DNA of 64,000 nucleotides from Candidatus Roseilinea sp. GTDB lineage: Bacteria; Chloroflexota; Anaerolineae; J036; Brachytrichaceae. The stretch is taken from NCBI GenBank assembly GCA_026003755.1, contig BPHV01000005.1, forward strand, positions 62,001-126,000, given 5' to 3'. The position numbers were made by a program, and so were the translations under genes. Of the stretch, positions 30,970 to 37,890 are shown one piece after another (the stretch's first letter is position 1; the number at the start of each line of letters is the position of its first letter). The notes under the pieces were generated by a model. The model saw only the letters and a list, made by a program, of their open reading frames with translations. It made no database searches and was not told where the DNA came from.

Positions 30970-30995
30970 TTGCAAGCATCTTTCTCGCCTATACT
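30970..30995 (+). promoter_or_regulatory. Candidate promoter of the SARP-like regulator
   Basis: TATACT (30990-30995) is a good -10 and lies 14 bases before ATG 31010, which would give a nearly leaderless mRNA. TTGCAA (30970-30975) is a possible -35, but its 14-bp spacing is short. No GTGGACG heptamers are present here, so autoregulation by the same operator is not supported. Confidence 0.3.
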
Positions 30996-31009
30996 GCAAT
31001 TACTGCAAC

Positions 31010-34000
31010 ATGAACGCTGGCGCGGCATCTGCTTTTGATTTGGAGTTCAGGCTGTTCGGCCCGCCGCGCTTGATCGCCAACCAGCGCGAACTCACCTTTC
31101 GCCGGCGCCAACCGCTGGCAATCTTGTCGGTGTTGGCGCTGAACGAGCGGCCGATCACGCGCGATGAGCTGTGCTATCTCCTTTGGCCCGACGCCCCTCA
31201 AGACGTCGCCCGCCAGCGTCTGCGCCGCTCACTGTCCGAACTGCGCCGCGTGATCGGACCGCCGGCGACGCGGCTGCTCTTCGACGCAACAGGCTCGCGC
31301 AGCATTCTCCTCAAGCTTAATCCGCACCTGTGCCACGTGGACGCGCGCGATTTCATCCAGCTCTCCACACAAGCGCATCACATGCCCGACCCGTCCGGTC
31401 TGCGCGCCGCCGAACTGGCCGCCCGCATCGGCGCCGAACCGCTCTTGAAGGGATTTGAACTCGACGACGCGCCCGAATTCGAGAATTGGCTGCTGGAGCA
31501 GCGAGAACGCTTCACGCGTCTTAAGATGGACACGTTGCGCCGCATGATCAGGGGATATGTGGACCTCAAAGACTATCCCCGCGCGGTCGCTACCGTCGCA
31601 CAAGCCCTGGCGCTCGATGAGCTTGCGGAAGACCTCCACTGCAAGGCCATCTGGCTGTATGCCGCCATTGGCCGACGCAGCGAGGCCGTTCGCCAATTTG
31701 CCCGGTGCGCTAGCCTGCTCGAGCGCGAATTGGCCATCGAGCCGGACGAAGCGACGCGCGCCGTGTATCAGGCCGTGTTGGAAGGGCGAATTGACGAAGT
31801 GCGCCCGCTGGCCTTTGGCCTGACCTCCGGTGACGCGGACCGCCGCCCCACCTGGCTTGCGTCCTCGCCCGACGCCAACCCACCTTCGCCGGCTTATCAC
31901 CTGCGCTTGGCCGACATCGCCCCGCGCGCCGAGGCCGCCGAGCGTGAGCTGACCGAAGCCATCGCCCAAGCGCTGCAGCACATGTCCAACGTGCTGTGGA
32001 TACAAGGGCCGACCGGCGCGCCGGCAAGCGCCCTGGTTGAGCAAGCCGTGAAGACCGTGCGCAAGCGACAGCCGGATTTGAACGTTTGGGAAGTCAGCGG
32101 CCACGCCATCACAGCGGATGCGCCTCTCGATCTCATGTGCCTCCTGCTCGATGCCGCCGCGCGCGAATACCTGACGCGCGTGCGCGAGTCCGCCACGTTG
32201 AACACAACGCCGCTCAACCTCTGGATGAGCGAAGCCGTGCGCCTGCTGCCGGAACTGCGCGCGATCTTCCCCCAACTCCCTCACCCGTCCGCTCTGCTCG
32301 AGGAAAAATCACCGACCACGGCATCACGCCGGCTGTTGCAGGCCCTGCCGCGGGTGTTGTTGGCGTTGACGGATGGCCGCCCGACCGCGGTGGTGTTGCG
32401 CGATGTGGATTGCGCCGACGCGGCATCTGTCGAAGCTATCGGCTGGTTAGCGCGCGGCCTTGCCGGTAGCCGCATGGCGCTGATCATCACCTGTCGCGAT
32501 GCGCCCCATGCTGCCCCTGAGGCGTTGCAGGCATTGCTCGGCGACCTACAAGCGCAGGATATGCTGCGCCTATGGTTTCTGCCGCCTCTCAGCCAAGCTG
32601 CCATCGCTACTCTGGTGCAGCGCTGCAACCTGCCGGCCGACTTTGCCGAGACGATCTGGGCTTGCACCGCTGGCGCGCCGCGCAGCGTGCTGGACATGCT
32701 GCGCGCAGCCTCAGCCCCCAACGCCCAGTTGCCAGATTCATGGCACGCCGCGATCCAAATCAACCTGAACACCCTCGACTCGACCACGCGCCAAGTGTTG
32801 GAGACTTTGGCCATCTTCGGCAACGCCACCGTGCCCGCGCTGGAGCACCTGAGCCGACGTGGCTTGGCCGACGTGGAGCGCGCGTGTGAGGCGTTGACCG
32901 AGGAATGGCACTGGCTCACCCGCTGCGGCGACCGTTATGCTATCGCCACGCCGGAAATACGGCACGCGGTGCTGGACGCGCTCTCCCCTGCGCGCCGCCA
33001 GCAATTGCACCGGCAAGCTGCTGATCTCCTCTATCGGCATCACGCTGATCCCAGCCGCATCGCACATCACCTGGCGGCCGCCGGCCAACCTAACCGCGCG
33101 GCTGCGCTATGGCTGGCAGCCGCGCGCCGCGCGCGCGAGCGCTACGCCTATCCGGCGGCGCTCGGCGCCATTCAGCGTGGCTTGGCCCTGGCCCGCAAGC
33201 CCGAGCTACAGTTCGACCTGCTGTGTTTGCAGGAAAGTCTGCTGCGCGAAAGCGGCCAACCCGAACAGCAAGCCATCGCCTTAGACGCCTTGCAACAACT
33301 CGCCAATGCTACGCCCCATTGCTCTGAGTGGCAGGCGGAAGTGCACTACCGACGCGGGCAGAACGCTTTGGCGCGCAGCGCTTGGGACGAAGCCATAGAT
33401 GCGCTGCAACGCGCTTCGGCGTGCACACTGCACAGAGACAGCCGCATCCTGATGGCCCTGGGGCGCGCCTTGGCGCAGCGCCACCGCTGGTCGGAAGCCG
33501 AGTCCACCTTCCAGCAAGCGCTGATGTCGGCCCGACAAGACGACCCCAACGCTCTGGCGCACGTTTGGCTGACCTGGGCGGAGATCGAACAACTGCGCGA
33601 GCGCTACGACGCTGCGAAGGCTGCGCTCAACCGGGCAGTCGCCCTGGTCGGCGCGCGTTCGCCGCTGTTGCCAAAGCTCATGCTCGCGCGAGGCACGCTG
33701 GCTTCGGTTTGTGGTGAATTCGCCACCGCCTTAACCTATGGCCAGGAGGCGCTGCGCCTGTTCGCACAGCGCGGCCTGCCCGATGCCGAAGCCAACGCCC
33801 AGACGCTGATCGCCCGCATGTGCGCTCGCTTGGGCCGGATCAACGAGGCGCTGGCTGCCTACGCCGCCGCCTACGCAGGCTACGCCGCGCTCGACCTGCG
33901 CCAGGGCATGGCCGCCGCGCGCGTCAACGCCAGCACACTGGCTCTGCGCAGCGGCGACTTTGAACAAGGCATCGCCTTGGCGCGCGAGGCATACGCGCTG

Positions 34001-34609
34001 TTCGAGGCGATTCAGGACGCGCGCGGGCTGTGCGTGGCGGCCAGCAATATCGGCGCGGCATACGTCTGGCTGGGACAGGGCGCGGAGGGCGAACGCTGGC
34101 TGCGCGAGTCGTATGCCCGCGCCAGCGAGGTTAATCTGCCGGCGCAACAGGCCGCCGCCCTGGCCAACTTGGGCGCGGCCTTGCTCCAGCAAGACCGCTT
34201 GGACGAAGCACGCGCGCGCATGGAGCAGGGCCTGGCCCTGCGCAGCGCACAGGGCCACCTGGACGTGAGCATAGACCGCGCCTTCCTGGCGATTGCCTGC
34301 CTGCGCCTGGGCGACCTACCGTCCGCCGATGCTCACAGCGCCCAGGCCATCGCTGATCTCGAGCGGATGCCACACGTCGAAAATCCCCAGCAGGTCTGGT
34401 TTGCGCGCGCTCAAGTGCTGCGGGCGAGCGACCAGGCCGGCGGCGAATCGCGCGCTGCCTTGGCACAAGCCGTCGCCCACCTCCAGCAAGTCGAGGCAGC
34501 ACTGCCCGAAACTCAGCGCGAGCATTACCGATCCGCTTTTGCCTTCAACCGCGCCATCCTGCGCGCCTTCAACGAGAACATCTGGCCCGATCCGCCGTCT
34601 CTGACGTAA
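31010..34609 (+). CDS. SARP/BTAD-type transcriptional regulator with NTPase-like and TPR domains
   Basis: A 1199-residue regulator; ATG 31010 (MNAGAASAFDLEFRLFG) fits the family N-terminus better than the frame open from 30839. Residues ~10-100 form an OmpR-like winged helix (FGPPRLIANQRELTFRRRQ, LLWPDAPQDVARQRLRRSLS); ~105-250 are the BTAD helices (DLKDYPRAVATVAQALALDE). A central P-loop NTPase-like domain follows with Walker B-like VVLRDVDCADAAS, but the Walker A position reads GPTGAPASALV without the Lys. From ~650 on there are many TPR helices. SARP regulators activate transcription by binding direct heptamer repeats upstream of -10 elements; such repeats precede the next two genes. Signal sensed by the TPR part is unknown. 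Confidence 0.88.
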   Translation: MNAGAASAFDLEFRLFGPPRLIANQRELTFRRRQPLAILSVLALNERPITRDELCYLLWPDAPQDVARQRLRRSLSELRRVIGPPATRLLFDATGSRSILLKLNPHLCHVDARDFIQLSTQAHHMPDPSGLRAAELAARIGAEPLLKGFELDDAPEFENWLLEQRERFTRLKMDTLRRMIRGYVDLKDYPRAVATVAQALALDELAEDLHCKAIWLYAAIGRRSEAVRQFARCASLLERELAIEPDEATRAVYQAVLEGRIDEVRPLAFGLTSGDADRRPTWLASSPDANPPSPAYHLRLADIAPRAEAAERELTEAIAQALQHMSNVLWIQGPTGAPASALVEQAVKTVRKRQPDLNVWEVSGHAITADAPLDLMCLLLDAAAREYLTRVRESATLNTTPLNLWMSEAVRLLPELRAIFPQLPHPSALLEEKSPTTASRRLLQALPRVLLALTDGRPTAVVLRDVDCADAASVEAIGWLARGLAGSRMALIITCRDAPHAAPEALQALLGDLQAQDMLRLWFLPPLSQAAIATLVQRCNLPADFAETIWACTAGAPRSVLDMLRAASAPNAQLPDSWHAAIQINLNTLDSTTRQVLETLAIFGNATVPALEHLSRRGLADVERACEALTEEWHWLTRCGDRYAIATPEIRHAVLDALSPARRQQLHRQAADLLYRHHADPSRIAHHLAAAGQPNRAAALWLAAARRARERYAYPAALGAIQRGLALARKPELQFDLLCLQESLLRESGQPEQQAIALDALQQLANATPHCSEWQAEVHYRRGQNALARSAWDEAIDALQRASACTLHRDSRILMALGRALAQRHRWSEAESTFQQALMSARQDDPNALAHVWLTWAEIEQLRERYDAAKAALNRAVALVGARSPLLPKLMLARGTLASVCGEFATALTYGQEALRLFAQRGLPDAEANAQTLIARMCARLGRINEALAAYAAAYAGYAALDLRQGMAAARVNASTLALRSGDFEQGIALAREAYALFEAIQDARGLCVAASNIGAAYVWLGQGAEGERWLRESYARASEVNLPAQQAAALANLGAALLQQDRLDEARARMEQGLALRSAQGHLDVSIDRAFLAIACLRLGDLPSADAHSAQAIADLERMPHVENPQQVWFARAQVLRASDQAGGESRAALAQAVAHLQQVEAALPETQREHYRSAFAFNRAILRAFNENIWPDPPSLT

Positions 34610-34681
34610 AACCTGCTCTCCTCTGCCCACCATCCCGCCAACCTGCAAACACGACAATGCACTAACAAGCCACTTACGCGT

Positions 34682-34714
34682 GTGGACGTTTTGTGGACGC
34701 CTCGACCACATACT
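34682..34714 (+). promoter_or_regulatory. Putative SARP operator/promoter of the lipoprotein gene
   Basis: Heptamer direct repeat GTGGACG (34682-34688) and GTGGACG (34693-34699) with a TTTT spacer gives an 11-bp period. Nine bases later CATACT (34709-34714) is a plausible -10; no -35 is needed in SARP-dependent promoters. AAGGAG at 34723-34728 precedes ATG 34740. An identical 19-base copy stands before the beta-helix gene. Confidence 0.6.
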
Positions 34715-34739
34715 GGCGGCTTAAGGAGAGACCAAACAA

Positions 34740-35657
34740 ATGAAGCGCGCTTATCTTGTTAGCCTTGCCTTGACGTTTATCTTGTCCGCCTGTTCATCGG
34801 GCGCGGCTACCGACTCGAGCGTTTCGCCCACAGGCAATGCCGAGCCGGCTGCCGCCTCAGTCGAGACGCCCACAGCCACCTCAGCAGCGACCGAAGTGCC
34901 GGCTGCGGCGCCTACAAGCGCATCTGCGCCAACTGAGGCGCCAACCGCGCCACCTACGGCCGCCCCCGCACCGACCGAAGCGCCTACAGCCGTCCCGCAG
35001 CCAACGGCAGAGGACGCATCGCAGGACGTCGGCGCGTGCGCGAATCGCTACCTGCCGGTGGCGCAGGGCGCATCGTGGGAGTATCGGATGAGCGGCCTGA
35101 GCGCCGGCACGTTCACACGCGTCGTCGCCAACGTCCGGCCGGATGGCTTCGATGATTATGACACCTTCGATGTCGGGGCCACGCGCGCCGGTAGCTGGGC
35201 GTGCCGAAACGGTGATCTGATCGCCCTGACGCCATCATCCAACCCGGTTGTTACCGCAGCAGACGCGCAGTTTGATTTCACCGTCGAGTCAAACGAAGGC
35301 GTTACCTTGCCGGCCGATCCTAAGCCGGGCCAGAGCTGGACGCATAAGGTGGTGTATCTGGGTGAGCAATCGGTCGGCGGCGTCACGCTGAAGTCCCGCA
35401 ACGTCGTAGAGACGTCGTGCAAAGCCGCCAACATCGAGGCTGTCGCCGTGCCGGCCGGCGAGTTTGAGGCGTTGCGAGTGAACTGCAAAACGACCCTCCA
35501 GATCACCCTCTCCGGCGGTCCGGCCGGTTTGCCCGGTCTCACGCTAAACATGACCGAGACGCGCTGGCTCGCGCCGGGCGTAGGGCTGGTCAAGTCGAGC
35601 AGCTCTAGCGACATGGGCGCTATAGAGATCGTCCTGCTGGCCTACCGCGCGCCATAG
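34740..35657 (+). CDS. Secreted lipoprotein with Thr/Pro/Ala-rich stalk
   Basis: A 305-residue protein with a signal peptide and lipobox ending at Cys18 (ILSAC). Residues ~20-95 are a low-complexity stalk of repeated PTA/APTEAP units, typical of spacers that lift a domain off the cell surface. The globular C-terminal ~200 residues start with CANRYLPVAQGASWEYRMSG and contain PKPGQSWTHKVVY and VPAGEFEALRVNC, a beta-rich pattern seen in uncharacterised bacterial surface domains. It has four or more cysteines that could pair outside the cell. It lies 130 nt after the SARP-like regulator and has a putative SARP operator. Function unknown. Confidence 0.75.
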   Translation: MKRAYLVSLALTFILSACSSGAATDSSVSPTGNAEPAAASVETPTATSAATEVPAAAPTSASAPTEAPTAPPTAAPAPTEAPTAVPQPTAEDASQDVGACANRYLPVAQGASWEYRMSGLSAGTFTRVVANVRPDGFDDYDTFDVGATRAGSWACRNGDLIALTPSSNPVVTAADAQFDFTVESNEGVTLPADPKPGQSWTHKVVYLGEQSVGGVTLKSRNVVETSCKAANIEAVAVPAGEFEALRVNCKTTLQITLSGGPAGLPGLTLNMTETRWLAPGVGLVKSSSSSDMGAIEIVLLAYRAP

Positions 35658-36027
35658 CTCCGCGGCGCCGTCAGCCGGCCCCCGGAATGTCTGCTACCGC
35701 CCCGCGTAGCAAGCAATGCAAGAAACATGCGGCGCTCTGCGGCGCGTTTGGAGGAGGATTCCTCGGTCATTTCGCGACAGGTGATGCGTCTGACCTGCCG
35801 ACTTGTGGGCGACCGGTGGCTGCCGCCTGCGTCGGCGCGCACACCCAGTCACCCATTATGTCTAAACAAGCAGGCATGGCGTTATACGGCGATGTCCACG
35901 TGGACGCCGGCGACCTGTGATCTGTGATGTGGACGTTTTGTGGACGTTTCCCCTATAGCATGGGGCATCTTGCTTCGGCAGGTGTCGAGACGGAACTTGC
36001 CGTTTCTTTACTTATGGAGGGTTTGAA
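35658..36027. other. 370-nt intergenic region with regulatory repeats
   Basis: No supported gene; two short overlapping open frames have no ribosome-binding site. The right half holds the palindrome and heptamers annotated separately. The beta-helix gene is then preceded by TGGAGGG close to its ATG. Confidence 0.55.
35894..35959 (+). promoter_or_regulatory. Putative SARP operator/promoter of the beta-helix gene
   Basis: GTGGACG at 35929-35935 and 35940-35946 (period 11, TTTT spacer) are identical to the copy at 34682-34699. Seven bases downstream TATAGC (35954-35959) can serve as -10. A third heptamer at 35900-35906 is part of the perfect 12-bp palindrome GTCCACGTGGAC (35894-35905), giving an additional inverted half-site. 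The spacing of this third site (29 bp) is off the 11-bp period. Confidence 0.6.
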
Positions 36028-37890
36028 ATGAGACTTGCCGCTCATCTTTCTAAACAAACGCTTTGGATTGCTCTCCTTGCACTGGGAGTCTGGTGGTGGC
36101 TGAGGGCCAGCCCGGCTCAGGCGCAGGAAATACCGCCCCAGGAGCGGGTGATCGTTCGTCCCGATTTGGCCTACCCGGCTGAATATCCAACTGAAACTCC
36201 GGAGCGGCGCACCGAAGAGGCCCGAACAGGCGAACGACCGACAACAGCCTCGTTGCCAAGTGATCGAAGGGCAGCCTCGCTGCGCGAGTGGGTGCAGCCG
36301 GCGCCCGACTGGTCATCTATCGCGCTGGCCGGCGCGCCGACGGGCGCGGGGCGCTATGCGCCGGCCGGGCCAACTGCCCCGCTGGCCGGCTTGTTTACGG
36401 TCAACACCACGGCGGATAACAATGCATTTGACAATTTCCTCTCCCTGCGCGAGGCAATGCTGGTGGCAAACGGTGCGCTTACCGGACCGTTTTCATCAGG
36501 CGAGCAGGCGCAGCTAAATGGGTGCAGCTTCGATGGAGCAGGTAACATCACGGGTGGGTGCGGCGCGAACATCCAGGATTCGATCTTCTTCGCCACTGCG
36601 CTGGGTTTTCGGCCGATCATCACTCTGGGCAGCCCGCTGCCGCCTATCAGCGACACGCAGCCCACGCTGCTGCTGGGCGCGTTCTTCAACAACGTGCAGC
36701 CGGTGATTAACGCGCAGAACCTCAGCGGCAGCACGCCGGGCCTGGTGGTCAACTCGAACGAGAACCAGATTGTCGCAGTCTCCGTTATCAATGCCCCTGC
36801 GGAAGGCATCCGGCTGAACGGCAATCAAAACCTGGTGGGGACGTGGACGATGGTGCGCAACAACAGCGGCAACGGTATCTACATCGTCGGGCTGACCAAC
36901 ACGGTGAGCAACAGCTACATCGGCGTGTTCTCCAACACGCTCACGAATCAGTTCGACTGCGCCGGCAACGCTTTAGAGGGAATTTATCTGGCGTCGAGCG
37001 CGCGCGCCACCACCATTCAGAAGAACCGGATCGGATGCAACAGCCGGGGTGGAATCTATATACGATCCACTGACAATCTGATCGGCGGGCCGACCTACAT
37101 CACGCATGGCAATTGGATTGAGAACAATGCGTGGGAGGGCATCTACATCGTCGGCAGCGATGCGCGCCGCAACGTGATCCAGAGCAATGACATCAACGTC
37201 AACGGCACATTCGGCGTGGTAATTAACGCCGGCCGGCAGAACACCATCACCAGTGGCCTATCCGGTTCTAACTACAACGATATCGCCGGCAACGGCTTGG
37301 ATGGTGTGCTGTTTCAATCGGGCGCGCAAGACAACCTGCTGGCCGGGGCAAGCATCAGGTACAACGGCCGGCACGGCGTGAACCTGGTGATCACAGGCAC
37401 GACCGGCAACCTGATTACGCGAACCCTGATCTTCAACAACGGGGACGACGGCATTCGTCAGGACCCCTACGCGGCAGCAAACATCTGGCGTGAAGTGTCC
37501 ATCTGGGACAATGGCGGGCTGGGCATTGACATCAATGCGGCAGGTGACTCCTCGAACACGCCCAATCCGCCCTATGTCTTCATCACCTCGGTGAACCCGA
37601 ACACCGGCCTGGTGCAGGGCAAGTCGAATGGCACGGCCTTTCTGGTAATCACGATTGTGGATTTGTACCGCATTGACCTTGACCCCAGCGGCTTTGGCGA
37701 GGGGGTTGAGTTCGTGGGATCGGACACTACCGATGCAAACGGCGACTGGAGCATCACCGACCCGAACCCATCCCTGTCGCGCGGCTGCTACACGGCTGTG
37801 GTGCGTGGCTTGGCAATTGTGGTGCCATACGCCACCGAGTTTAGCCGCAGCAACTGCTCGGTCTTCGCGCCGATCGTGCGCAAGCCTTAA
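36028..37890 (+). CDS. Secreted right-handed beta-helix repeat protein with CSLREA-like N-terminal motif
   Basis: A 620-residue exported protein. The signal peptide (LLALGVWWWLRASPAQA) is followed by a disordered Pro/Glu/Arg-rich region, then FTVNTTADNNAF and FLSLREAMLVANG, a variant of the 'CSLREA' motif found on bacterial beta-helix surface proteins. Residues ~190-520 are parallel beta-helix coils with repeating N-x-I-x-x-N-x-x-x-G-I-Y-I patterns (GNGIYIVG, EGIYLASS, GGIYIRST, EGIYIVGS, GLDGVLF). The last ~90 residues resemble an Ig-like domain (TSVNPNTGLVQG, DANGDWSITDP). TGGAGGG precedes the ATG. Sequence-related proteins bind or cleave polysaccharides, but no catalytic site is obvious. 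Confidence 0.8.
   Translation: MRLAAHLSKQTLWIALLALGVWWWLRASPAQAQEIPPQERVIVRPDLAYPAEYPTETPERRTEEARTGERPTTASLPSDRRAASLREWVQPAPDWSSIALAGAPTGAGRYAPAGPTAPLAGLFTVNTTADNNAFDNFLSLREAMLVANGALTGPFSSGEQAQLNGCSFDGAGNITGGCGANIQDSIFFATALGFRPIITLGSPLPPISDTQPTLLLGAFFNNVQPVINAQNLSGSTPGLVVNSNENQIVAVSVINAPAEGIRLNGNQNLVGTWTMVRNNSGNGIYIVGLTNTVSNSYIGVFSNTLTNQFDCAGNALEGIYLASSARATTIQKNRIGCNSRGGIYIRSTDNLIGGPTYITHGNWIENNAWEGIYIVGSDARRNVIQSNDINVNGTFGVVINAGRQNTITSGLSGSNYNDIAGNGLDGVLFQSGAQDNLLAGASIRYNGRHGVNLVITGTTGNLITRTLIFNNGDDGIRQDPYAAANIWREVSIWDNGGLGIDINAAGDSSNTPNPPYVFITSVNPNTGLVQGKSNGTAFLVITIVDLYRIDLDPSGFGEGVEFVGSDTTDANGDWSITDPNPSLSRGCYTAVVRGLAIVVPYATEFSRSNCSVFAPIVRKP

Follow-up and report, generated by a model that had tools for sequence, protein, structure and literature searches.

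Two described regulators of the SARP family come closest in fold to the protein discussed here: AfsR of Streptomyces coelicolor, in which ATP relieves autoinhibition, and EmbR of Mycobacterium tuberculosis, a SARP-domain protein that is not the regulator of an antibiotic cluster. At AfsR operators the 11-bp direct repeats begin at -40, their first 8 bp are contacted and the upstream repeat lies over the -35 element; for SARPs in general the repeat period is 11 (or 22) bp, with the 3' repeat 8 bp from the -10 element (PMC10936776). Operators of the PimR type consist of directly repeated heptamers separated by 4 bp, and binding requires no fewer than two of these heptamers (PMC5930380). A 2024 review calls SARPs exclusive to actinobacteria (PMC10972967); they are studied as switches of antibiotic clusters. 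The stretch of DNA that we analysed, henceforth the window, comprises 64,000 nucleotides (G000:C5:62001-126000) of the 3.34 Mb genome of Candidatus Roseilinea sp., a member of the Anaerolineae. It encodes a large SARP-type regulator, followed by a lipoprotein gene and a gene for a right-handed beta-helix protein. Judged by sequence comparison, it is very probable that this regulator is an activator acting via paired TGTGGACG octamers on these two neighbouring genes.

By fold and operator geometry the regulator is a member of the SARP family and not an ATP-gated AfsR ortholog, the latter because the GK(S/T) of its P-loop is missing. A winged helix followed by BTAD (residues ~10-270) is recognized both in the sequence and in the fold, confirming the SARP type that had been proposed in an earlier note on this DNA; then come an NTPase-like domain with an eroded P-loop and a C-terminal TPR array, which is the SARP-NOD-TPR order of AfsR and of large SARPs. 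Pfam finds BTAD (PF03704) at 110-257 with 2.3e-14 and TPR_12 with 5.9e-21, AAA_16 being just at its gathering score (32.6), while phmmer against the PDB retrieves EmbR (9.2e-7) and AfsR (2.2e-4). For residues 1-277 an AlphaFold2 model based on an alignment of 17 SARP domains has a mean predicted local distance difference test score of 91; its best structural match is AfsR as part of the transcription complex (8k60; Z 20.2, root-mean-square deviation 3.2, 243 aligned), followed by EmbR (2ff4; Z 19.4) and subsequently by TPR proteins at Z 11.6 (the fold comparison was also made by Foldseek). The matches to AfsR and EmbR span the entire SARP domain. EmbR differs in ending with an FHA domain where the present protein has NTPase and TPR parts. 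PimR and other SARP-LAL proteins share with it a SARP domain, an ATPase and a large C-terminal half, as well as heptamer direct repeats; the main operator of PimR, by contrast, has three CGGCAAG heptamers without overlap with -35, and PimR controls an antibiotic cluster.

The likeness to AfsR, which extends to 11-bp repeats over -35, has its limits. The two proteins are only about 23% identical. The backbone contacts of AfsR (Q48, W74, R87, S91 and R94) are retained as Q34, W59, R72, S76 and R79, whereas its base contacts T88 and R92 are replaced by R73 and E77, a change that fits an operator sequence different from that of AfsR: the afs box is CGTT(T/C)ATCG, the putative operator here is made of TGTGGACG, and where AfsR has afsS as its target we find genes for exported proteins. 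All orthologs have LRRSLS(E/Q)LR in the recognition helix, and the close ones share the start ATG. The Walker A motif (32006-32029) reads GPTGAPAS, so that the lysine is lost and the intact GxxxxGK(S/T) of large SARPs is absent. In the six closest orthologs GK is followed by R or N (GPTGAGKR or GPAGAGKN-type), and only genome G022 has an ortholog with an intact P-loop, GAGGAGKS. As a consequence of this erosion, ATP gating of the AfsR kind is doubtful in this clade.

The identical 19-mer TGTGGACGTTTTGTGGACG that the earlier note had seen upstream of both genes is present at 34681-34699 and 35928-35946, its heptamers following each other at an 11-bp period. These are the only exact matches to GTGGACG-N4-GTGGACG in the window. 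The genome contains one further exact pair, C5:277260-277277 (-), which we rejected as an operator: it is coding (VDDVWTHGRH) in a phosphoribosyltransferase-like gene. The genome scan proposed in the earlier note shows that the pair is not frequent at random, since TGTGGACG-N3-TGTGGACG occurs exactly twice in the whole genome, as against 0 for a reversed control. Looser repeats with up to two mismatches are no more numerous than in the reversed control (55 versus 71), and for this reason we claim no additional targets in this genome. Upstream of the regulator itself (30990-31010) there is no TGTGGACG pair, hence no sign of autoregulation; the same region has a TATACT 14 bp before the ATG, and the regulator transcript may be nearly leaderless. 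A third heptamer (35900-35906) in a 12-bp palindrome, also pointed out previously, does exist, while an operator role for it is unsupported: from its start to that of the next heptamer there are 29 bp, not a multiple of 11, and we rejected it as part of the operator because it is out of phase. Beyond the window it is seen only in a near-identical copy, in genome G015.

Promoter geometry was compared over 25 distinct operator contexts, two of them with one mismatch. In 20 of the 25 a YANNNT hexamer follows the second octamer at a distance of precisely 9 bp, and in at most two at any other offset. This common offset supports reading the second hexamer of the window as TAGCAT (35956-35961), not as TATAGC. 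With this reading the distance of 7-9 bp given in the earlier note becomes a uniform 9 bp. If the -10 hexamer is placed at -12 to -7 of the presumed transcription start, the octamers would come to lie at about -40 to -33 and -29 to -22, in the same register as the afs box, and from this spacing the upstream octamer would overlap -35. The site has, in sum, the features of a SARP operator: direct repeats at 11 bp, 9 bp from octamer to -10, and overlap with -35. The -10 hexamers are weak, and a preserved -35 is lacking. Now, a position over -35 is one that repressors would use as well, and the regulator might bind there to block RNA polymerase. We deem this very unlikely: AfsR and PimR, which are SARPs with such sites, are activators (PMC10936776, PMC5930380), and weak -10 hexamers without a preserved -35 are as expected of activator-dependent promoters.

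We infer, then, that each TGTGGACG octamer of a pair would be bound by one copy of the N-terminal winged-helix/BTAD part, the two copies being neighbours at a distance of 11 bp or one DNA turn. The upstream octamer would lie over -35, the downstream one would stop 9 bp short of -10, and the bound SARP domains would recruit RNA polymerase to promoters with a weak -10 and no good -35. Any signal that releases the regulator would act via its NTPase-like and TPR parts. In this genome the direct targets would be the adjacent lipoprotein and beta-helix genes (Table 1); in relatives, the same operator would drive further exported proteins at other sites.

Table 1. Features of the regulator locus (positions in the window)
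Feature	Position	Strand	Basis
Large SARP-type regulator, 1199 aa	31010..34609	+	Pfam, AlphaFold2 fold, orthologs starting at same ATG
Recognition helix LRRSLSELRR, regulator codons 71-80	31220..31249	+	Alignment to AfsR W74-K95
Operator 1 (predicted), TGTGGACG-TTT-TGTGGACG, 11-bp period	34681..34699	+	Sequence; co-occurrence with regulator ortholog in family
-10-like hexamer CATACT, 9 bp 3' of operator 1	34709..34714	+	Offset 9 in 20/25 contexts
Lipoprotein gene, 305 aa, lipobox LSAC, DUF3108-like domain	34740..35657	+	PF21347 3.1e-7; homologs behind same operator in G004, G015
Palindrome GTCCACGTGGAC holding start of third heptamer (35900-35906)	35894..35905	no strand	Sequence; probably outside operator
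Operator 2 (predicted), TGTGGACG-TTT-TGTGGACG	35928..35946	+	Sequence
-10-like hexamer TAGCAT, 9 bp 3' of operator 2	35956..35961	+	Common offset 9
Right-handed beta-helix protein, exported-looking, 620 aa, C-terminus FAPIVRKP	36028..37890	+	Pfam Beta_helix 2e-12

Comparison within the family covered 28 genomes; like all genomes compared here they are single representatives, and many are fragmented drafts. An ortholog of the regulator (47-85% identity, or partial/split genes) is present in 10 of them; those with source names are Anaerolineae metagenome-assembled genomes, one labelled Thermoflexales. Exact TGTGGACG-N3-TGTGGACG pairs are found in 8 of the 10 genomes with the ortholog and in 0 of the 18 without it (Fisher 1.4e-5, or 4.1e-5 once the own genome is left out, relatedness being uncorrected): the repeats are retained along with the regulator, as the earlier note would require, and where it is absent they are absent too. 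All 17 exact sites of the family are intergenic. At 16 of these the next open reading frame (ORF) opens with a signal sequence or a lipobox, and at the remaining one (G004:C127:125) the downstream gene is cut by the contig end. Matches in phosphoribosyltransferase-like genes of G008 and G024 were rejected as coding, as were one-mismatch matches within coding sequence in G005, G018 and G011, which lack the ortholog. The predicted targets comprise DUF3108-like lipoproteins, beta-helix proteins (in G006, G015 and G024 this operator likewise precedes homologs of the one in the window), a lipoprotein with NBR1-Ig and DUF7452, an ILPQWR-type lipoprotein, a small lipoprotein and TAT-like lipoproteins; several of the operator-preceded genes are unlinked to the regulator. 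The control of the two window genes that the earlier note had proposed is thus supported by co-occurrence, by the fold of the SARP domain and by putative targets that look exported. Of the module described there, sensing (given the eroded P-loop) and a surface position of the two proteins are presumptive parts.

It could be argued that the repeats are bound by another regulator, for instance some other SARP or a response regulator that binds in tandem, like PhoP, and that the neighbouring SARP is a bystander. Indeed, AfsR and PhoP share sites in Streptomyces (PMC10972967), and one G020 site is 827 bp away from another SARP paralog, whose helix reads LRTTLARIRR. However, the exact repeats follow the presence of the ortholog over the 28 genomes, unlinked sites in several genomes have a common octamer and spacing, and, as discussed below, when the recognition helix of the neighbouring SARP changes, so does the octamer type; we therefore find this alternative highly improbable.

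A number of observations concern the cargo. Proteins encoded behind the operators often end in P(I/V)(V/T)R(K)P (37857-37890; L096, L215, L216, L219, L091), an ending seen in 11 of 1131 ORFs checked, 6 of these 11 being operator-linked cargo; this C-terminal motif may be a sorting signal. Proteins of the DUF7452 type recur beside SARP operators of different regulator groups (L171 5479-7221, L211, L217 and, by eye, L323). In G036 (L103 6169-6205) GGGGACG, GAGGACG and GAAGACG follow each other at an 11-bp period before GGATAATC, and this triple lies ~1.4 kb upstream of a homolog of the window lipoprotein. Finally, an 11-bp unit, TGTGGGCGCAA, forms tandem arrays scattered over many contigs of G011; these are operator look-alikes.

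The genes downstream of the regulator appear to have been exchanged between genomes together with its C-terminal part, once with the operator as a junction, a reading which rests on two pairs of draft genomes. Between the window and G015, which belongs to another genus, the regulator is about 50-70% identical over most of its length, and identity steps up to about 95-100% for most of the region that begins at ~33,760, within the C-terminal third of the regulator, takes in the lipoprotein gene and reaches the beta-helix promoter (33760-36000). Between G006 and G020 identity rises from about 0.6 to about 0.88 in the same C-terminal third, stays high up to the operator, then falls to about 0.35 where the cargo genes differ (L091 7418-8492). 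Could the second operator copy, then, be a recent duplication of a promoter fragment, or part of an exchanged cassette, so that identity would reflect shared history, not selection? The ~97% identical DNA shared with G015 from ~33,760 into the beta-helix promoter, when the rest of the regulator is at ~60%, goes in that direction, and because of it the window and G015 are not independent genomes. Yet the flanks of the two window operators are unrelated outside the 19 bases, save for the -10-like hexamer 9 bp downstream, and G003, G004, G006, G020, G022 and G024 keep the octamers while spacer, flanks and downstream genes vary, which makes such an origin of the identity exceedingly improbable.

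Wider scans covered the class Anaerolineae within Chloroflexota. In 396 genomes the exact TGTGGACG pair occurs 25 times, versus 2 in the reversed control. Outside the family its sites belong to a single genus (G102, G179, G194) and to G132. SARPs with helix LRRHLHDL adjoin some of these sites, and several precede exported-looking ORFs. Intergenic DNA near paralogous SARPs was also scanned for octamer repeats of any period followed by a -10. In 40 SARP neighbourhoods period 11 gives 15 sites, versus 0-3 (about 1.3) for each other period (Poisson 1.6e-11), and in 20 further neighbourhoods 5 sites versus 0-2 (0.6; Poisson 4e-4); in 19 SARP-free control stretches there is 1, versus 0-4 (1.2; Poisson 0.7). 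About eight to ten of the period-11 hits near SARPs are convincing and some look like chance; L240, L241 and L180 were rejected as apparent chance AT-rich matches. The arrangement of a SARP next to an 11-bp repeat is common in the class, not universal.

A point that goes beyond the earlier note is that the predicted type of operator varies with the recognition helix of the SARP beside it. RGACG-type repeats adjoin 4 of the 6 testable SARPs with an LRRxL helix versus 1 of 44 other SARPs, the helix classes having been defined after part of the data had been seen. The second operator type, TGTAGCCA-N3-TGTAGCCA, was first noticed beside two SARPs; in 298 genomes it gives 30 matches in 20 genomes, with 0 in the reversed control. 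SARPs by these hits that have a readable helix and did not serve to define the class (G066, G074, G087, G097, G114, G133 and G207) all have HLLTHL, which is present in 4 of 57 of the general SARP set (p about 8e-9, relatedness uncorrected). Over a combined set of 36 sites the -10 stands at offset 9 in 23. Several GTAGCCA sites have no SARP on their short contig, and at least two (L299, L300) are unlike promoters.

Several facts weigh against the activator reading and have to be counted with it. The gap from octamer to -10 is 9 bp, versus the 8 bp quoted for Streptomyces. G010 has the ortholog and no operator, its contig stopping 2 bp after the stop codon of the regulator; G017 has the ortholog and just a site with one mismatch; and the operators of G022, G017 and G024 stand apart from the regulator. 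Export was assessed by eye, from signal sequences and lipoboxes, without a predictor, and most paralogous SARPs of the class are without a recognized operator nearby. The customary association of SARPs with antibiotic or secondary-metabolite genes in actinobacteria is not what is seen here, in Anaerolineae and with lipoprotein and exported-protein targets, an association that is customary for SARPs and does not define the fold. In the open-access literature searched we found no BTAD/SARP regulators in Chloroflexi, which does not prove their absence elsewhere.

With these points included, the regulator is most likely an activator of a few exported proteins that acts through a paired DNA repeat, and on sequence comparison its locus is one case of a class-wide arrangement of SARPs with predicted operators. 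We incline slightly to a broader picture, in which Anaerolineae would have many such pairs, each made of a large SARP, its own operator with an 11-bp period and genes for exported proteins; the operator sequence would be readable from the helix (LRRxL with RGACG, HLLTHL with TGTAGCCA), and cargo and regulator C-terminus would be recombined, with the operator as one junction. On the activator reading alone, SARP promoter logic would appear in a second phylum, with exported proteins of uncultured bacteria as its predicted targets; the regulons are compact, and sequence suffices to list them. Two classes of operator that go with two classes of helix make a natural data set for the DNA-recognition code of SARPs, and exported proteins of uncertain role, including the DUF7452 and DUF3108-like families, would gain a regulatory context.
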